Shown: in pieces, positions 22,359-30,141 of the stretch
How positions within the stretch are numbered: the first letter of the stretch is position 1
How the letters are laid out: each line of letters begins with the position of its first letter
Assembly: GCF_008802355.1 (NCBI RefSeq)
Contig: NZ_VZRA01000001.1
Coordinates: forward strand, 1,234,525-1,298,524
Origin: Oryzomonas sagensis
GTDB lineage: Bacteria > Desulfobacterota > Desulfuromonadia > Geobacterales > Pseudopelobacteraceae
Length of the DNA stretch: 64,000 nt
Direction: 5' to 3'
Notes under the pieces: model-generated
Seen by the model: only the letters and a program-made list of their open reading frames with translations
Told to the model about the DNA's origin: nothing
Database searches by the model: none
Translations under genes and position numbers: made by a program

Positions 22359-23984
22359 TTACCGCGTTTCGTACTCCTTGAGCTTCCGGTAGAGCGTGGC
22401 CAGGCCGATATTCAGTTCCTCCGCGGCCCGTGCCTTGTTGTCGCCAACGGCGTGCAGCACCCCCAGGATATAGTCACGCTCTATTTCATCCAGAGGACGG
22501 ATGCAGCCCGAGACCACCGGTTTCAATGACAGGGCCCGCAACTCGCATGGCAGGTCGGCGATGTCGATTTGATTGCCCTGGCACAAGGCAACGGCATACT
22601 CGACGGCGTTCTGCAGTTCCCGGACATTGCCCGGCCATTCGTAACGGAGCAGCTGAGCGGCGGCGCTCGGAGTGAACCCGGTTATGTCGCACCCTTGATT
22701 GCGAGTGATCTTATTGAGGTAAAAACGCGCCAAGGGAAGGATGTCTTCAGAGCGCTCGCGCAGTGGGGGAACCCGCACCTCGATCACTCTCAGGCGATAG
22801 TAAAGATCCTGGCGGAAATGCCCGGCGTTCAGCTCGTCGGTCAGGTTGCGATTCGTGGCGGCCACGACCCGCACGTCGATGGCGCGGGACCTGTTCTCGC
22901 CTACCCGCCGCACCTCCCGCTCCTGGAGGGCGCGCAGCAGCTTGACCTGCATGGCCGGGGACACCTCGCCGATCTCATCCAGGAACAGCGTGCCGCCGGT
23001 AGCCGCCTCGAAGAGCCCCAGACGGTCCTTGTCCGCCCCGGTAAATGCCCCCTTCGCATGGCCGAACAGCTCGCTCTCCAGCAGCGTTTCCGTGAGCGCG
23101 CCGCAGTTTACGGCCACAAATGGCCGGGATACCCGCGCCGATTGGTCATGTATGAAACGGGCCATGCGCTCCTTGCCGACGCCGCTATCCCCGGTTATGA
23201 GCACCGAAGAGTCGACCTTGGCGACACGCCGGGCGATGTCCACCACATCCCGCATCGCCTGGCTCCGGGCCATGATGAACGGGGAGGTGTCTTCCACGCC
23301 CTCGAGAAACTCGAGCTGCTCTTGCCGCCTCTTCAGTCGTTTTTCCGTACAACGCAGTTTGTCGCTCAACTCCTTCAAGATTGCCGAAGAGGATTCCATC
23401 CGATAATAGAGAAGATGGGGTTCGATCTCCGCCCCCCATTTTTCTTTGAAACGCCCCACAACGTGGCATGTGGCATCCCCCTTGCCGCAGCACCGGTCTT
23501 CGATGAAATACACCTCCCGGCCTTCTATATGGGACACAAACCCGCTGGCGTAGCCGACCAGCGTCCAGCAAACCGGTTCCTCCGCCCGCCCGATATGCAG
23601 AAGGTGCTGCTCGGCTTCGTAGCTGTCATCCCATGTCGAGTCGACCAGCGGTTCGTCGCCTTCCCCATTGGTTCGTATGTTGAGCGTGACATTGACCAGG
23701 CCTGTCAATGAATGGAACTTCGGTCCCGCTTTTCCCCGTGCATCCCGCCATACCTCCGGGAAGGTCGATTGGATGTTCTCGGCAGCCCGCCAGCCGTAGG
23801 CATAGCCGAAGCGGGTGAGAATGCTCCGCGCGGCGAACGTTCCCAAGGTATCGATCAGTTCCTTGCGGAGCAGTCCCATGGCGGCAGCATCGAACAGAAG
23901 CGCCCTTTGTCCCATGAGCTGTATCACCCCGCCCTTGGGGTCGAACGAAAGCAGCTCACGCAGGTCCAGACTCTCAATCTTCAT
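22359..23984 (-). CDS. XylR/DmpR-type sigma-54-dependent activator
   Basis: This 541-residue regulator has an XylR_N-type effector domain (about 10-115) and a V4R domain. V4R shows CWTLVGYASGF and CCGKGDATCHVVGR; C139, C165, C166 and C173 are candidate zinc ligands. A linker (195-235) leads to a AAA+ domain with Walker A GDSGVGKE (265-272), the sigma-54 contact loop GAFTGA (312-317) and Walker B GTLFLDEIGE. A Fis-type helix-turn-helix occupies about 495-540. Known members sense small aromatic compounds directly. It is divergent from the cytochrome-flavoprotein-porin genes, whose promoter is of sigma-54 type. Confidence 0.93.
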   Translation of the reverse strand: MKIESLDLRELLSFDPKGGVIQLMGQRALLFDAAAMGLLRKELIDTLGTFAARSILTRFGYAYGWRAAENIQSTFPEVWRDARGKAGPKFHSLTGLVNVTLNIRTNGEGDEPLVDSTWDDSYEAEQHLLHIGRAEEPVCWTLVGYASGFVSHIEGREVYFIEDRCCGKGDATCHVVGRFKEKWGAEIEPHLLYYRMESSSAILKELSDKLRCTEKRLKRRQEQLEFLEGVEDTSPFIMARSQAMRDVVDIARRVAKVDSSVLITGDSGVGKERMARFIHDQSARVSRPFVAVNCGALTETLLESELFGHAKGAFTGADKDRLGLFEAATGGTLFLDEIGEVSPAMQVKLLRALQEREVRRVGENRSRAIDVRVVAATNRNLTDELNAGHFRQDLYYRLRVIEVRVPPLRERSEDILPLARFYLNKITRNQGCDITGFTPSAAAQLLRYEWPGNVRELQNAVEYAVALCQGNQIDIADLPCELRALSLKPVVSGCIRPLDEIERDYILGVLHAVGDNKARAAEELNIGLATLYRKLKEYETR

Positions 23985-24070
23985 GGCGCCCCCCCACGTT
24001 TTTTCATAATGATAAACCCTGTATCAAAACGAGAAACCCCTGTCTATGTATACATTTACAAAGTCAATAA

Positions 24071-24098: not shown

Positions 24099-24114
24099 TG
24101 GCATGGCGGATGCT
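24099..24114 (+). promoter_or_regulatory. Sigma-54 (-24/-12) promoter
   Basis: TGGCATGGCGGATGCT has the invariant GG (24100-24101) and GC (24112-24113) spaced by exactly 10 bases, close to the consensus TGGCACG-N4-TTGCA. It faces the cytochrome gene, whose start is about 110 bases downstream, and it lies beside a sigma-54-dependent activator gene. Confidence 0.75.
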
Positions 24115-24223: not shown

Positions 24224-24571
24224 ATGAACAAACTGAAACTGGGAACATGCGCTGCTGCGCTTATCGCGGGCGTTATCCTCATGTCGGCCGGTGCGCAAGC
24301 GCACGAACTTTCCGGCAAGCATGCCAGGGAGGGGCTGAAATGCGTCGATTGCCACAAGGTGGACAAGCCGGTCTCGGCAGCGGCGCCGGATGCCTGCATG
24401 GAGTGCCATGGCGATTACGGCAAGGTTGCAGCCCTGACCAAGTCCTTGCACGCCAATCCGCACGATTCCCACCTGGGACGACTCGCCTGTACCAAGTGCC
24501 ACGGCATACACAAACCGAGCGAGATCGTATGCCTGGAGTGTCATAGCGAGTTTGAGTTCAAACTAAAATAA
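24224..24571 (+). CDS. Periplasmic tetraheme cytochrome c (flavocytochrome-type electron donor)
   Basis: This 115-residue exported cytochrome has a signal peptide ending AGAQA. Four CXXCH haem sites follow (C40-H44, C58-H62, C89-H93, C103-H107). The small size and spacing resemble the tetraheme domain of Shewanella flavocytochrome c fumarate reductase, encoded here as a separate subunit. It likely passes electrons from a quinol-linked cytochrome to the flavoprotein encoded 125 bases downstream. An AAAGGAGG ribosome binding site decides the start. A separate cytochrome and flavoprotein also occur in the methacrylate reductase of G. sulfurreducens AM-1. Confidence 0.92.
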   Translation: MNKLKLGTCAAALIAGVILMSAGAQAHELSGKHAREGLKCVDCHKVDKPVSAAAPDACMECHGDYGKVAALTKSLHANPHDSHLGRLACTKCHGIHKPSEIVCLECHSEFEFKLK

Positions 24572-24696
24572 TAAACTATTAATTATCGTATTCCAAATTA
24601 TTTGATCGTGTTCGAGATGGCTGGTGCGGAATTCGAGGTGAAGACAAGAGATCAGGGTGCCCTAAGGGGCATACCACACCACACGAGGAGGAAGCA

Positions 24697-26235
24697 ATGA
24701 AGAGGTTTTGCGGAAAGATTGGCTTGGCGCTGGCACTGGTGACGGCCATGGCGGTACCGGCTCTGGCGGAAAAAACCATGGACACCGATGTTGCCATCAT
24801 CGGAGCAGGCACATCGGGCCTGGCCGCCGCCGTCCAGGCACTGCAGGGCGGGGCCAAGGTCATTGTCCTTGAGAAGCAGCCCAAGGTCGGCGGGACCGGC
24901 AGCTTCTGCGAAGGGGTCTTCGCAGCAGAGAGCAAGATTCAGAAACGTATCGGCATTGACGTGTCCAAATCCTTCGCCTTCAAACTCATCATGAATTACA
25001 GCCACTGGAAGGCGAACGGCGCGCTGGCCAAGGCCTTTGTGGACAAGTCGGCCGAAACCATCGACTGGCTCGATGACCTGGGTGTCAAGATCGAGTATGT
25101 GGGGGTTGGCGGTTTCGGCGGTCCTCTGACCTGGCATGTCATCGCCCCCGGCCCGGACCTGGTCAAAGATCCGCGCGATTTCCATTGCCAGAGGATGATC
25201 AACGTCTTCAACAAATACGTCCTCGACCATGGCGGCAAGATCCTCCTTGAGACCCCCGGCACGGAGCTTATCTCCGAGAATGGCAAGGTCGTCGGCGTCG
25301 TAGCCAAGGATAAATCCGGCGAAAAGATCAGAATCAACGCCAAAGCGGTTGTGGTCGCTACCGGCGGTTTCGCCAACAACAAGGAGATGATGAAGAAATA
25401 TGTGAAAGATTATCCTGACGTCATCCCGGTTGGGCAAATAGGCAAAGACGGCGACGGCATCAGGATGGCCGAAGCGGTTGGCGCCTCCCTCGAAGGCATG
25501 TCCACCGTCCAGGCGTACCGCCCCGGACTGGCCGGCTTCCACCCGGCTGACCAGATGATCGCCCTGGCGGTTCAGCCCTATTTTTGGGTGACCCCACGCG
25601 GCGAACGCTACACCGACGAATCCAGCATCGAATACTGGCCCTATGCCGGGAATGCGCTGACCAGGGTCGGCGGCACGACATACGCCATCTACGACGATGC
25701 CACCCGGAAGTTTGCCGTTGAAAAGGGCATTGAAATGCCCCTGGGCGAATGGGTTCTCCAGGGGACCAAGCTTACCAAGTGGGAAGATGCCTTCAACAAG
25801 GAACTGGCCCGCAAGCGGGGCAATGTTTTCAAGGCCACTACCATCGAAGACCTTGCCAAGCAACTCGGCATGGACGCGGCCGTCCTGAAAGCCAGCGTCG
25901 AGAAGATGAACAAGGCCGCCGCAACCCGTGAGGATACCGAATTCAACAAGCAGGCCAAGTTCCTCCGCCCGGTCGCCACTCCGCCCTTCTATGCAACCAA
26001 ACTCCTGCCCCGCCACCTTGGTACGCTGGGCGGCGTCAAGGTGACGGCCGAGGCTGAAGCCGTCAACACCAAGGGCGTCCCCATCCCCGGTCTGTACGCC
26101 GTCGGCACCGATTCCGGCGGTATGTACGGCGACAGCTATGACCTGCTGCTCGGCGGCGGCACCGCCGGCTATGCCATCAATTCCGGTCGGATCGCTGCTG
26201 AAAATGCCCTGAAATACGCAGGTATCACCAAATAA
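24697..26235 (+). CDS. Exported FAD-dependent reductase, fumarate-reductase-like, substrate unknown
   Basis: This 512-residue flavoprotein has a signal peptide ending PALA (cleavage near residue 24), dinucleotide-binding VAIIGAGTSGLAAA (32-45), VVVATGGFANN and the C-terminal FAD segment GLYAVG to SGRIAAENA. It belongs to the FAD_binding_2 group of FccA, UrdA and methacrylate reductases. The substrate site differs. The TTRD-type proton-donor arginine is replaced around SSIEYWPY (309-316), and the second arginine (NRLGGNA in FccA) is replaced by DSYDLLLGGG (479-488). A histidine (H440, RHLGTLGG) is kept. It should act in the periplasm with the tetraheme cytochrome. A non-dicarboxylate alkene substrate is an inference. 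Confidence 0.9.
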   Translation: MKRFCGKIGLALALVTAMAVPALAEKTMDTDVAIIGAGTSGLAAAVQALQGGAKVIVLEKQPKVGGTGSFCEGVFAAESKIQKRIGIDVSKSFAFKLIMNYSHWKANGALAKAFVDKSAETIDWLDDLGVKIEYVGVGGFGGPLTWHVIAPGPDLVKDPRDFHCQRMINVFNKYVLDHGGKILLETPGTELISENGKVVGVVAKDKSGEKIRINAKAVVVATGGFANNKEMMKKYVKDYPDVIPVGQIGKDGDGIRMAEAVGASLEGMSTVQAYRPGLAGFHPADQMIALAVQPYFWVTPRGERYTDESSIEYWPYAGNALTRVGGTTYAIYDDATRKFAVEKGIEMPLGEWVLQGTKLTKWEDAFNKELARKRGNVFKATTIEDLAKQLGMDAAVLKASVEKMNKAAATREDTEFNKQAKFLRPVATPPFYATKLLPRHLGTLGGVKVTAEAEAVNTKGVPIPGLYAVGTDSGGMYGDSYDLLLGGGTAGYAINSGRIAAENALKYAGITK

Positions 26236-26247
26236 CGCTTCTGCTTC

Positions 26248-26281
26248 GGCTCCCCCTTCCCACTGGGGGAAGAGGGGAGCC
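26248..26281 (+). terminator. Stable intercistronic hairpin
   Basis: GGCTCCCC and CTTCCC pair with GGGAAG and GGGGAGCC to form a 14-bp stem with one bulge. It lacks a T run, so it may act as an mRNA stabiliser or a partial attenuator between the flavoprotein and porin genes. Confidence 0.45.
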
Positions 26282-26374
26282 TGAGCGGGCGGCATGGATT
26301 GTCTGTGTTGCATATTACCCGTGTAGACCCAATTGGCGCCAGCCAATCGGTAAAATGAGCATAAGGAGACACGC

Positions 26375-27556
26375 ATGAAGAGAGGTATGATCGGAGTGGT
26401 AGCTTTTGGTGCGGCGGTGGCGTTTGCGGTTCCCGCCATGGCCATTGACTTTAGCGGGTACGGCGCCATCAGGCTGGGGACCTTCTGGCAACAGAACCAG
26501 TACTACAATGCTGCGGGTGCCAAAAGAAGCGACAGCGACTTCAGCCTTGACCTGATGGGCGACAGCCTGGTCGGCGTGCGCGCCAAGGAAGGCGACTTCT
26601 CCGCAGTCGCGGAACTCGGCGCCTACAACCCCAAGGCGTACTCGAAAGGCCTTGAACTCCGTCTGCTGTTCGGCGAATGGAATTTCGGCAACGGCAAGCT
26701 GCGCATCGGCAGGACCCCCAGCCCCTATGTCTACCGCACCCAGCAGGTATGGGACAGCGACGGCGGTTTCAACGCCTACGGTTCCCTGTGGGACGGCCGT
26801 TATGCAAATATCAAGCTGACCATGAACAACGGCTTCTACTTTACCCTCATGCAGCCGAGGGTCGGCGCCCAGGCCAACAACACCGGCAACGTCACAAGTA
26901 GCGACGCCACTGCCGCCGCCTCGCAAACCGGGAACCTCTATCCCACCGCGGCTTACACCAACTATAACACCATAATGCCAAAGATTGTAACCGGTTACGA
27001 GGGCAAATTGGACAGGTGGACCTATGGCGGCGGCGTGGCCTACAATATGTACAACGTGGAGACATACGCTACGGCAACGGCCAATCCTGTCAAAACGGAC
27101 ATCCACTCCTACCTGGTCTTTTTCCACGGCAAGATCGATCTGGCGCCGGTGGAGCTATCCTATAACGTTTTTACCGGCCGCAACCTGGGCGATCTGATGA
27201 GCACTGCCGCCAGCGCCTATGTCACGAGCGGCGCCAACCCCAACGGTGCCGGTACCGGCGCATACTATGATGTCACCAACAAGGCAAACGCCTACAGCTA
27301 CGGTGGCTGGGGCCAGGTCGGCTATACCGTGAACGACAAACTCAAGCTCTATGCCGGCGCATCCTATGTCGCGGACGACAACCGCAAGACCCACGCCGAC
27401 GAGCGCCTGGCCACCTTCGTCAATGCCCAGTACCAAGTCAGCAAGAATTTCAAGATCGTGCCTGAAATAGACTTCATGAATGACATGACCAGCACGACCG
27501 GTGCAAAAGAACCCAGAACATTCGTCGCCGGCGCCAAATGGGAAATGGCCTTTTAA
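26375..27556 (+). CDS. Outer-membrane porin
   Basis: This 393-residue protein has a signal peptide (MKRGMIGVVAFGAAVAFAVPAMA) and then alternating beta strands rich in Tyr, Gly and Asn. It ends in a C-terminal phenylalanine (AKWEMAF), the usual beta-barrel assembly signal. A DxDF/NAYGSLWDGRYANIK region and a low-complexity Ala/Thr/Asn loop (about residues 168-190) suggest an external loop. It follows the periplasmic reductase by 139 bases, so it may admit the substrate. A TAAGGAG ribosome binding site and a terminator frame it. The exact porin family is not identified. Confidence 0.85.
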   Translation: MKRGMIGVVAFGAAVAFAVPAMAIDFSGYGAIRLGTFWQQNQYYNAAGAKRSDSDFSLDLMGDSLVGVRAKEGDFSAVAELGAYNPKAYSKGLELRLLFGEWNFGNGKLRIGRTPSPYVYRTQQVWDSDGGFNAYGSLWDGRYANIKLTMNNGFYFTLMQPRVGAQANNTGNVTSSDATAAASQTGNLYPTAAYTNYNTIMPKIVTGYEGKLDRWTYGGGVAYNMYNVETYATATANPVKTDIHSYLVFFHGKIDLAPVELSYNVFTGRNLGDLMSTAASAYVTSGANPNGAGTGAYYDVTNKANAYSYGGWGQVGYTVNDKLKLYAGASYVADDNRKTHADERLATFVNAQYQVSKNFKIVPEIDFMNDMTSTTGAKEPRTFVAGAKWEMAF

Positions 27557-29485: not shown

Positions 29486-29712
29486 ATCCGATGTGCGGTG
29501 ATCTGCGCCCAAGGTCGCGGCGTCGGCTGGTGGAATCAGGCGCCCGTCGGATTCGGCTGTTAACCGACACCCCCGGGAAGATGGTCGGCCTGCAGATTGT
29601 GGAACGGATTCCCCATGGAAATCCCGCCCACCGGGACCCGCAGCCGCTCCATGAGGACCAAACGGGAAAAACGGGGCCATCTGCTGGCAAACCTGCAAGA
29701 CGAGGACGTGGC

Positions 29713-30141
29713 ATGGAAGTTCAAAATAACCATCGATTCAAGAGACAGCATAAGGCCATGAACAATGATTCACGCATGCCGAGTAGGGGGATGACCGTCA
29801 GCGACAGCCGCTACCGGAACATCGTCGGTCGATTGGATGCCATGTTTGAACAACTTTTGCATAAGCCGGATAAAGATCTTGGAGCGGACGTTGACCGGCT
29901 GCTGGACACCATGATGGAGCATATCGATAGCGAGAATGGTTACATGAGGATGGTGGGCTTTCCCCAAGCCGTGCAGCACGGTCTCCACCACCAGTTCATC
30001 TGCGCCAGGACGGCCGAATTGCATTACCGCATCAGCAAGGGGCAGGAGATAACGCCCGAAGAGTTGAGCAAGGTGCGCCTGCTCTGGATGGAGCACATCC
30101 ATGTCCATGACCGGGCTTTCGAAGTGTTCCTGGCTTGCTAG
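29713..30141 (+). CDS. Hemerythrin-like protein with an altered first ligand
   Basis: This 142-residue protein has the four-helix hemerythrin pattern. Visible iron ligands are H70 and E74 (MEHIDSENGYM), H89 and H93 (QHGLHHQF), and H128 and D133 (WMEHIHVHDRAF). The usual first histidine of the DxxHxxL motif is a tyrosine here (DSRYRNIVGRL, Y34), so oxygen binding may be altered or lost. The chosen ATG has a GAGG 6 bases upstream; an internal ATG at 29758 is an alternative. The gene lies between the FG-GAP gene and a terminator. Confidence 0.75.
   Translation: MEVQNNHRFKRQHKAMNNDSRMPSRGMTVSDSRYRNIVGRLDAMFEQLLHKPDKDLGADVDRLLDTMMEHIDSENGYMRMVGFPQAVQHGLHHQFICARTAELHYRISKGQEITPEELSKVRLLWMEHIHVHDRAFEVFLAC

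Follow-up and report, generated by a model that had tools for sequence, protein, structure and literature searches.

The gene at 24697-26235 on the plus strand of a 64,000-nucleotide stretch of Oryzomonas sagensis DNA (the window) encodes a flavoprotein of the FccA/UrdA fold in which both substrate arginines of fumarate reductases had been predicted to be missing. This raises the question of what such an enzyme acts on and where its electrons come from. A search for papers describing the gene cassette to which it belongs returned none in the literature searched.

The flavoprotein and its predicted structure

The gene product has 512 amino acids, a Sec-like N-terminus that suggests export, and a match to FAD_binding_2 over the full domain (Pfam PF00890, 3.1e-61; 208.3 bits against a cut-off of 20.4). 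The host, an iron-reducing bacterium of paddy soil, belongs to the Geobacteraceae and has a 3.6-Mb genome; its closest named relative, Oryzomonas japonica, carries a copy of the flavoprotein that is 99% identical. An antisense ORF of 605 amino acids (24652-26469, minus strand) covers the entire gene. It was set aside as a gene and judged to mirror the GC-rich codon usage of the coding strand.

An AlphaFold2 model built with 34 relatives has a mean pLDDT of 90.5, with a weaker stretch (74-80) at the replaced loop 471-490. Its best match among solved structures in the PDB is UrdA (6t86, Z 40.7, rmsd 4.0, 444 aligned residues), followed by flavocytochromes c3 (Z 38-40), with 3-ketosteroid dehydrogenases close behind (4c3x, Z 38.2, rmsd 3.3, 450 aligned residues). 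The FccA/UrdA fold assigned in the original prediction is thus borne out by the top structural match and by the FAD_binding_2 score.

The same genome encodes a conventional tetraheme flavocytochrome with the TTRD and RLGGN motifs (L003, G000:C1:1182015-1183343). It serves as an internal control for the loss of the arginines, and its presence means that fumarate reduction is probably covered elsewhere than by the 24697-26235 protein. Another genome of the genus (G004) has about 25-32 matches to the flavoprotein superfamily, compared with 3-8 in the window's own genome. Several of these span the full length and share about 40-50% identity with the window protein, so that fumarate-reductase-like genes are greatly expanded in G004.

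Active-site residues

The segments SSIEYWPY (309-316) and DSYDLLLGGG (479-488), from which the loss of the arginines had been read by eye, were found at these positions in the translation. The FccA chain numbering used to compare residues was verified with the help of three named mutants (Q363F, R402Y, H505A). Single-sequence and profile alignments agree that E312 (25630..25632, plus strand) stands at the place of FccA R402 and UrdA R411, and L484 at that of FccA R544 (UrdA R560). Arginine is absent from both places in all 56 GDSYD-type relatives of an 84-row alignment (0/56 at 312 and 0/56 at 484). Of the 28 other rows, 7 have arginine at both, and these are the FccA/UrdA-like rows. The flavoprotein, with E312 and L484, does not belong to the type defined by this pair of arginines.

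Tyrosine had also been proposed to replace the first histidine, and Y274 does align with FccA H365. This is not unusual in itself, because UrdA has a tyrosine there too (Tyr373; PMC7921117, partial text). Y274 and R275 of the YRPG motif (25516..25521, plus strand) are each found in 49 of the 56 relatives. The accompanying claim that a histidine is kept at H440 fails by one position: H440 aligns with FccA V503, and FccA H504 and H505 correspond to L441 and G442. Residue 440 is histidine in 16/56 relatives and mostly S, A or T elsewhere, and the column of the hinge histidine (FccA H504, UrdA H520) is leucine in 55/56. The residue reading of the original prediction therefore stands for the arginines and falls for the kept histidine.

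The suggestion that a nearby tyrosine or glutamate donates the proton found no support either, because neither E312 (Glu in 13/56) nor Y313 (Tyr in 2/56) is conserved. Residues H103, W104, W146, H147, Q293, R304, E308, N319, Y477, D479, Y481, D482 and G487 are invariant in 56/56 GDSYD-type relatives, and among these Tyr481, Tyr477 and His147 are candidates for the proton donor. Y481, D482 and G487 lie in the GDSYDLLLGGG loop (26128..26160, plus strand), which takes the place of FccA AN-RLGGN. In the alignment G487 coincides with UrdA Gly563, whose backbone binds the substrate carboxylate according to the available part of PMC7921117.

The clade-specific R439 lies next to the non-conserved H440 (26011..26016, plus strand). 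Arginine 439 is present in 21/21 rows of the flavoprotein's clade and 0/35 other core rows, and each of the 56 core relatives has either K/R292 (35 rows) or R439 (21 rows), never both. Among 107 rows with Y481, a cation is found at 291/292 in 47, at 438/439 in 30, at neither place in 30 and at both in 0. Changes of the cation on the tree are few (10 and 5) and an independent-pairs test gave a median p of 1, so that mutual exclusion is not taken as evidence of spatial replacement. A two-residue indel makes it uncertain which residue of 291-293 matches FccA R381, and the alignments differ on this point. R439 shares its strand parity with L441, the equivalent of FccA H504; it may thus face the pocket and is a candidate for an arginine supplied from another loop.

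Relatives and family membership

The 84-row alignment and tree were made after removal of broken or partial rows (L052, L062, L076, L078, L079), of the window copy and a near-copy (L001, L024) and of a row in the wrong frame (L102); near-copies that were kept leave 82 different rows. For the wider set used to count cations in Y481 rows, L131, L149 and L156 were removed as too short or out of frame, and rows more than 90% identical were merged, reducing 141 to 114. In the 84-row tree a branch with SH-aLRT 97 sets the seven FccA/UrdA-like rows apart from all others, the window protein included. It lies in a clade of 21 rows (SH-aLRT 100) inside a large group without the FccA arginines. Loss of the arginines is hence a property of the whole large Tyr481-bearing branch, not a peculiarity of this gene. 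A substrate other than fumarate, as originally predicted, is well supported by the absence of both arginines and of an H504 equivalent together with this tree position outside the FccA/UrdA clade.

The best NCBI family model for the flavoprotein is the vinylphenol reductase VprA (NF053717), with 352.1 bits, below the cut-off of 600. The same model is the best match for 5/5 relatives checked (280-391 bits), and two VprA-like proteins from Bacillota score 507 and 479 bits. The model is not specific, because every relative of the branch that was checked scores about 280-510 bits. These two Bacillota proteins have Met292-Glu293 and no Arg439, whereas the clade of the window protein has Val292-Gln293 and Arg439. 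By its sequence the window protein is a member of a VprA-like superclade and not a VprA equivalog. Its scores with 3-ketosteroid dehydrogenase models fall far below their cut-offs (PRK12844, 157.1 bits against 789; PRK07843, 132.8 against 788). Y481 was considered as a putative counterpart of the C-terminal catalytic tyrosine of these dehydrogenases; the residue-level alignments obtained were with FccA only.

Members of the clade occur in Geobacteraceae, Desulfopila, a Nitrospiraceae MAG, Propionivibrio, Deferribacterota, Brenneria and Shewanella. Among 395 sampled genomes of the window's phylum, 14 have any match at E 1e-60 and only two (G000, G014) have an ortholog of at least 76% identity; in the phylum of G044, orthologs of at least 59% are found in 6/50 genomes. 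This sporadic occurrence suggests that the cassette spread by horizontal transfer.

The cytochrome partner and gene order

The gene upstream of the flavoprotein (24224..24571, plus strand) codes for a tetraheme cytochrome c of 115 amino acids with four CXXCH motifs and a Sec-like signal. It matches PF14537 (Cytochrom_c3_2) and its start was set after a AGGAGGTG ribosome-binding site. All 17 of its PDB matches are flavocytochrome c3/FccA chains, aligned at the N-terminal haem domain (E down to 6.5e-10). Since the cytochrome matches only FccA haem domains in the PDB, it and the flavoprotein correspond to FccA split in two. It also has a weak match to the Cgr1 model (25.8 bits against a cut-off of 340). 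A NapC/NrfH-type cytochrome family has 2 matches over the cut-off in the same genome, a point in favour of the function proposed below.

The cytochrome of the PF14537-type family lies directly upstream of the flavoprotein in 18/19 loci of the clade. Downstream is a gene (26375..27556, plus strand) for a 393-residue protein with a signal peptide, probably an outer-membrane porin; a Pfam search with this ORF gave zero matches. The porin gene follows in 11/11 Geobacteraceae loci examined and is found in 18/19 clade loci, mostly directly downstream of the flavoprotein, and the corresponding gene in the Deferribacterota and Shewanella loci belongs to the OprD family. An MFS transporter (PF07690; 30317..31525, plus strand) is a recurrent neighbour with a looser association in the window. 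The same cluster occurs in 14/19 clade loci, in several of them directly after the flavoprotein or the porin. Around related flavoproteins at 37 other loci, an adjacent cytochrome is present in 4, the MFS cluster in 6 and the V4R activator cluster in 2.

Two further observations concern these loci. Between porin and transporter lies a gene (29491-30141, plus strand) that recurs in 7 clade loci; its Geomonas copy matches Hemerythrin (PF01814), and the window copy has no Pfam match. In Propionivibrio dicarboxylicus the flavoprotein gene is followed by another multihaem cytochrome, Cytochrome_C7-like and with at least five CXXCH motifs (L033:4929-5648).

Regulator and promoter

Divergent from the operon, the gene at 22359..23984 (minus strand) encodes a sigma-54 activator of 541 amino acids with the Pfam domains XylR_N, V4R, Sigma54_activat and HTH_8. 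PDB matches of its sensor domain are exclusively the phenol sensors PoxR, MopR and CapR/DmpR. Its assignment to the DmpR/MopR type follows from the succession of XylR_N, V4R, AAA and Fis-type HTH domains, a His/Trp anchor and a Cys3Glu zinc site. H91 and W118 correspond to the pair that holds the hydroxyl of the phenol in MopR (H106 and W134), and C139/E162/C165/C173 to the MopR zinc ligands C155/E178/C181/C189 (residue roles from the available parts of PMC10715001 and PMC7264223). DmpR His100 is the same residue as MopR H106, and is a tyrosine in the toluene-sensing XylR (PMC7264223, partial text). Anchor and zinc ligands are kept in 13/13 V4R activators found beside the reductase. The bulky residues F99 and F132 of the MopR pocket are replaced in the window activator by the small residues Gly and Ser. 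Sensing of p-cresol by PcrS and of p-ethylphenol by EtpR goes with enlarged distal pockets (PMC10715001, in the part available), and with this precedent the inducer can reasonably be guessed to be a para-substituted phenol.

A predicted sigma-54 -24/-12 element, TGGCATGGCGGATGCT (24099..24114, plus strand), lies between activator and cytochrome. The strict pattern occurs in this interval in 12/13 V4R loci and 0/4 GntR loci, compared with 0.02 matches predicted by shuffles across the 13 V4R loci, of which most are close relatives and not 13 independent cases; the remaining one, Desulfopila L032, has only a one-base variant. The pattern was defined after the window had been viewed, and counts within the window are weak (1 strict match with 0.24 expected, 12 loose with 5.7 expected), so that the weight rests on conservation across loci. 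Alignment of the 13 upstream regions reveals a conserved palindrome some 77 bp further upstream than the sigma-54 element, a candidate activator site of the type TATCA-N3-TGATA (24022..24034, plus strand). It is perfect in 8/13 V4R loci, degenerate in 4, including the window, and absent in L034.

The V4R activator is present in 13/19 clade loci. Phenol control is not universal, because a GntR regulator takes its place in four clade loci and neither type is present in two.

Proposed function

What the sequence itself shows is the fold of a flavoprotein that has lost the FccA arginines, the export signals and haem motifs, the gene order, the promoter and a sensor with phenol-anchoring residues; from these we infer the direction of the reaction, the class of substrate and the proton donor. 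The flavoprotein would be the catalytic half of a two-protein, FccA-like respiratory reductase of the periplasm. The sigma-54 activator would turn the operon on upon sensing a phenol, and electrons would pass from the menaquinol pool through the tetraheme cytochrome to FAD, which would deliver a hydride to a phenolic compound at its side-chain double bond. The neighbouring genes tell more than the residues about this chemistry and raise the likelihood of the one hinted at in the original prediction. Its aromatic direction is upheld by VprA as best family model and by the divergent regulator of the phenol-sensing type; together with a sensor of the phenol type and an FccA-like partner suited to reduction, the VprA-like sequence points to a phenolic alkene. 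Counted against the proposed function are the VprA score, well below the cut-off of a model that is not specific, the restriction of the phenol-type regulator to part of the clade loci, the sigma-54 pattern being defined with the window in view and mostly tallied in close relatives, and the OprD porins near relatives, which hint at an acid, something that VprA-type reduction of vinylphenol would not need.

The claim that the substrate is possibly not a dicarboxylate is plausible. Its extension to the absence of any carboxylate is not sustained, since OprD and other porins beside relatives and the clade's own Arg439 indicate that the substrate may be an acid. The likeliest class would be a p-hydroxyphenyl-propenoid such as a hydroxycinnamate, with vinylphenol less likely. 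No phenolic acid decarboxylase (PF05870) was found in 7/7 ortholog-bearing genomes searched, compared with matches in 2/14 control genomes, and this favours an intact hydroxycinnamate over a self-made vinylphenol. The original interpretation is in part supported: the non-fumarate substrate and the aromatic direction are retained, and E312 and Y313 as donors are given up. That the cassette codes for a phenol-inducible periplasmic respiratory reductase for the side-chain C=C of a phenolic substrate, which may be a hydroxycinnamate, has in our estimate an even chance of being correct.

The alternative that survives best is a periplasmic enzyme that reduces a non-phenolic enoate (methacrylate/acrylate-like or alicyclic, for example), for which the phenol sensor would merely mark plant litter. 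The porins of relatives agree with it and R439 could bind one carboxylate, but VprA remains the nearest described model and the phenol dyad is kept in every V4R activator of the set. Activators of the DmpR/MopR type usually sense the substrate of their own pathway, which also weighs against this explanation, and we regard it as unlikely though credible. The layout of flavoprotein and tetraheme cytochrome in two genes counts in its favour, as in the Geobacter methacrylate system Mrd/Mcc (PMC4427408, partial text).

Next comes a respiratory reductase whose substrate would be a neutral phenol with a vinyl or propenyl group (4-vinylphenol, vinylguaiacol, isoeugenol), with VprA-like chemistry moved to the periplasm. 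The family model and the missing R402 and R544 equivalents agree with it, as does the sensing of p-ethylphenol by the V4R relative EtpR (PMC10715001, partial text). However, the VprA score is 352 of 600 bits, the residue pairs at 292-293 and Arg439 separate the clade from the two Bacillota VprA-like proteins, and no decarboxylase was found in the seven genomes searched, so that a neutral substrate appears rather improbable. Least probable, and in our view quite doubtful, is the reverse reaction, in which a dihydrophenylpropanoid or cyclohexenone-like compound would be dehydrogenated and its electrons would feed extracellular electron transfer by way of the tetraheme cytochrome. In its favour, the protein is structurally close to 3-ketosteroid and cyclohexanone dehydrogenases (Z 36-38), a tyrosine in the loop at the active site is characteristic of dehydrogenases, and Geobacteraceae oxidise aromatics with metals as acceptors. 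Against it, the cytochrome is of the FccA haem-domain type, which serves reduction in FccA, and the nearest described model, VprA, is a reductase.

Building on the phenolic reading, a wider proposal can be put forward tentatively. Geobacteraceae of paddy soil and scattered Deferribacterota, Nitrospirota and Proteobacteria might respire lignin-derived hydroxycinnamates in the periplasm by means of a horizontally moving, mostly phenol-inducible cassette, whose ene-reductase would rely on a tyrosine-based site in place of the arginine acid catalyst, with R439 of the hinge strand taking over as the substrate-binding cation.

For anoxic wetlands, the reduction ('hydrogenation') of unsaturated plant-derived organic matter has been considered as a sink for electrons. 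A named and regulated gene cassette in bacteria of paddy soil and sediment would make this idea testable. It would add a clearly bounded group, with inducer class, promoter and electron donor named, to the many uncharacterised fumarate-reductase-like flavoproteins, and would offer a handle on how such enzymes work without the arginine acid.

Comparison with known systems

Respiratory flavin reductases of the gut are reportedly treated by Little et al. 2024. Among FccA-like periplasmic reductases we rate the cassette as a well-bounded variant that is new. It shares with FccA, the flavocytochrome c3 of Shewanella, the FAD and clamp domain fold, a Sec-like export signal and a tetraheme partner homologous to the FccA haem domain. 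The working unit of flavocytochrome c3, which requires such a haem domain, is completed here by a separate neighbouring gene, so that two polypeptides take the place of one. FccA R402, R544, H504 and H365 are replaced by E312, L484, L441 and Y274, and the GDSYD loop with its invariant Tyr481 is three residues longer. UrdA is the best structural match and likewise has a tyrosine at the place of the first histidine (Y373, Y274 here). Unlike UrdA, the window protein has no FMN-binding domain and lacks R411, H520 and R560, which bind the substrate in UrdA (PMC7921117, partial text).

VprA is the best family match of the flavoprotein and of the relatives checked. The window protein differs from VprA and VprA-like proteins by its score, by position 292-293 and R439, by its predicted export, and by a cytochrome partner and sigma-54 control, whereas VprA is under the LysR-type VprR (PMC10295242). 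Mrd/Mcc of Geobacter sulfurreducens AM-1, compared by description only, also encodes a flavoprotein of the periplasm and a multihaem cytochrome as separate proteins of a single operon. Its gene order is mrd before mcc, with a Tat signal on Mrd (PMC4427408, partial text), as opposed to a leading cytochrome gene and a Sec-like signal in the window. Cgr1/Cgr2 of Eggerthella lenta similarly pairs a cytochrome with an FAD_binding_2 reductase without the fumarate reductase residues. Cgr2 is set apart by description, as it needs one or more Fe-S clusters and has a predicted Tat export signal (PMC5953540, in the part available). The activator resembles DmpR, MopR and PoxR in domain order, the His/Trp phenol anchor and the zinc ligands. 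It departs from MopR in the small residues of its distal pocket, and from all three in controlling a putative respiratory reductase instead of a phenol hydroxylase or degradation operon.
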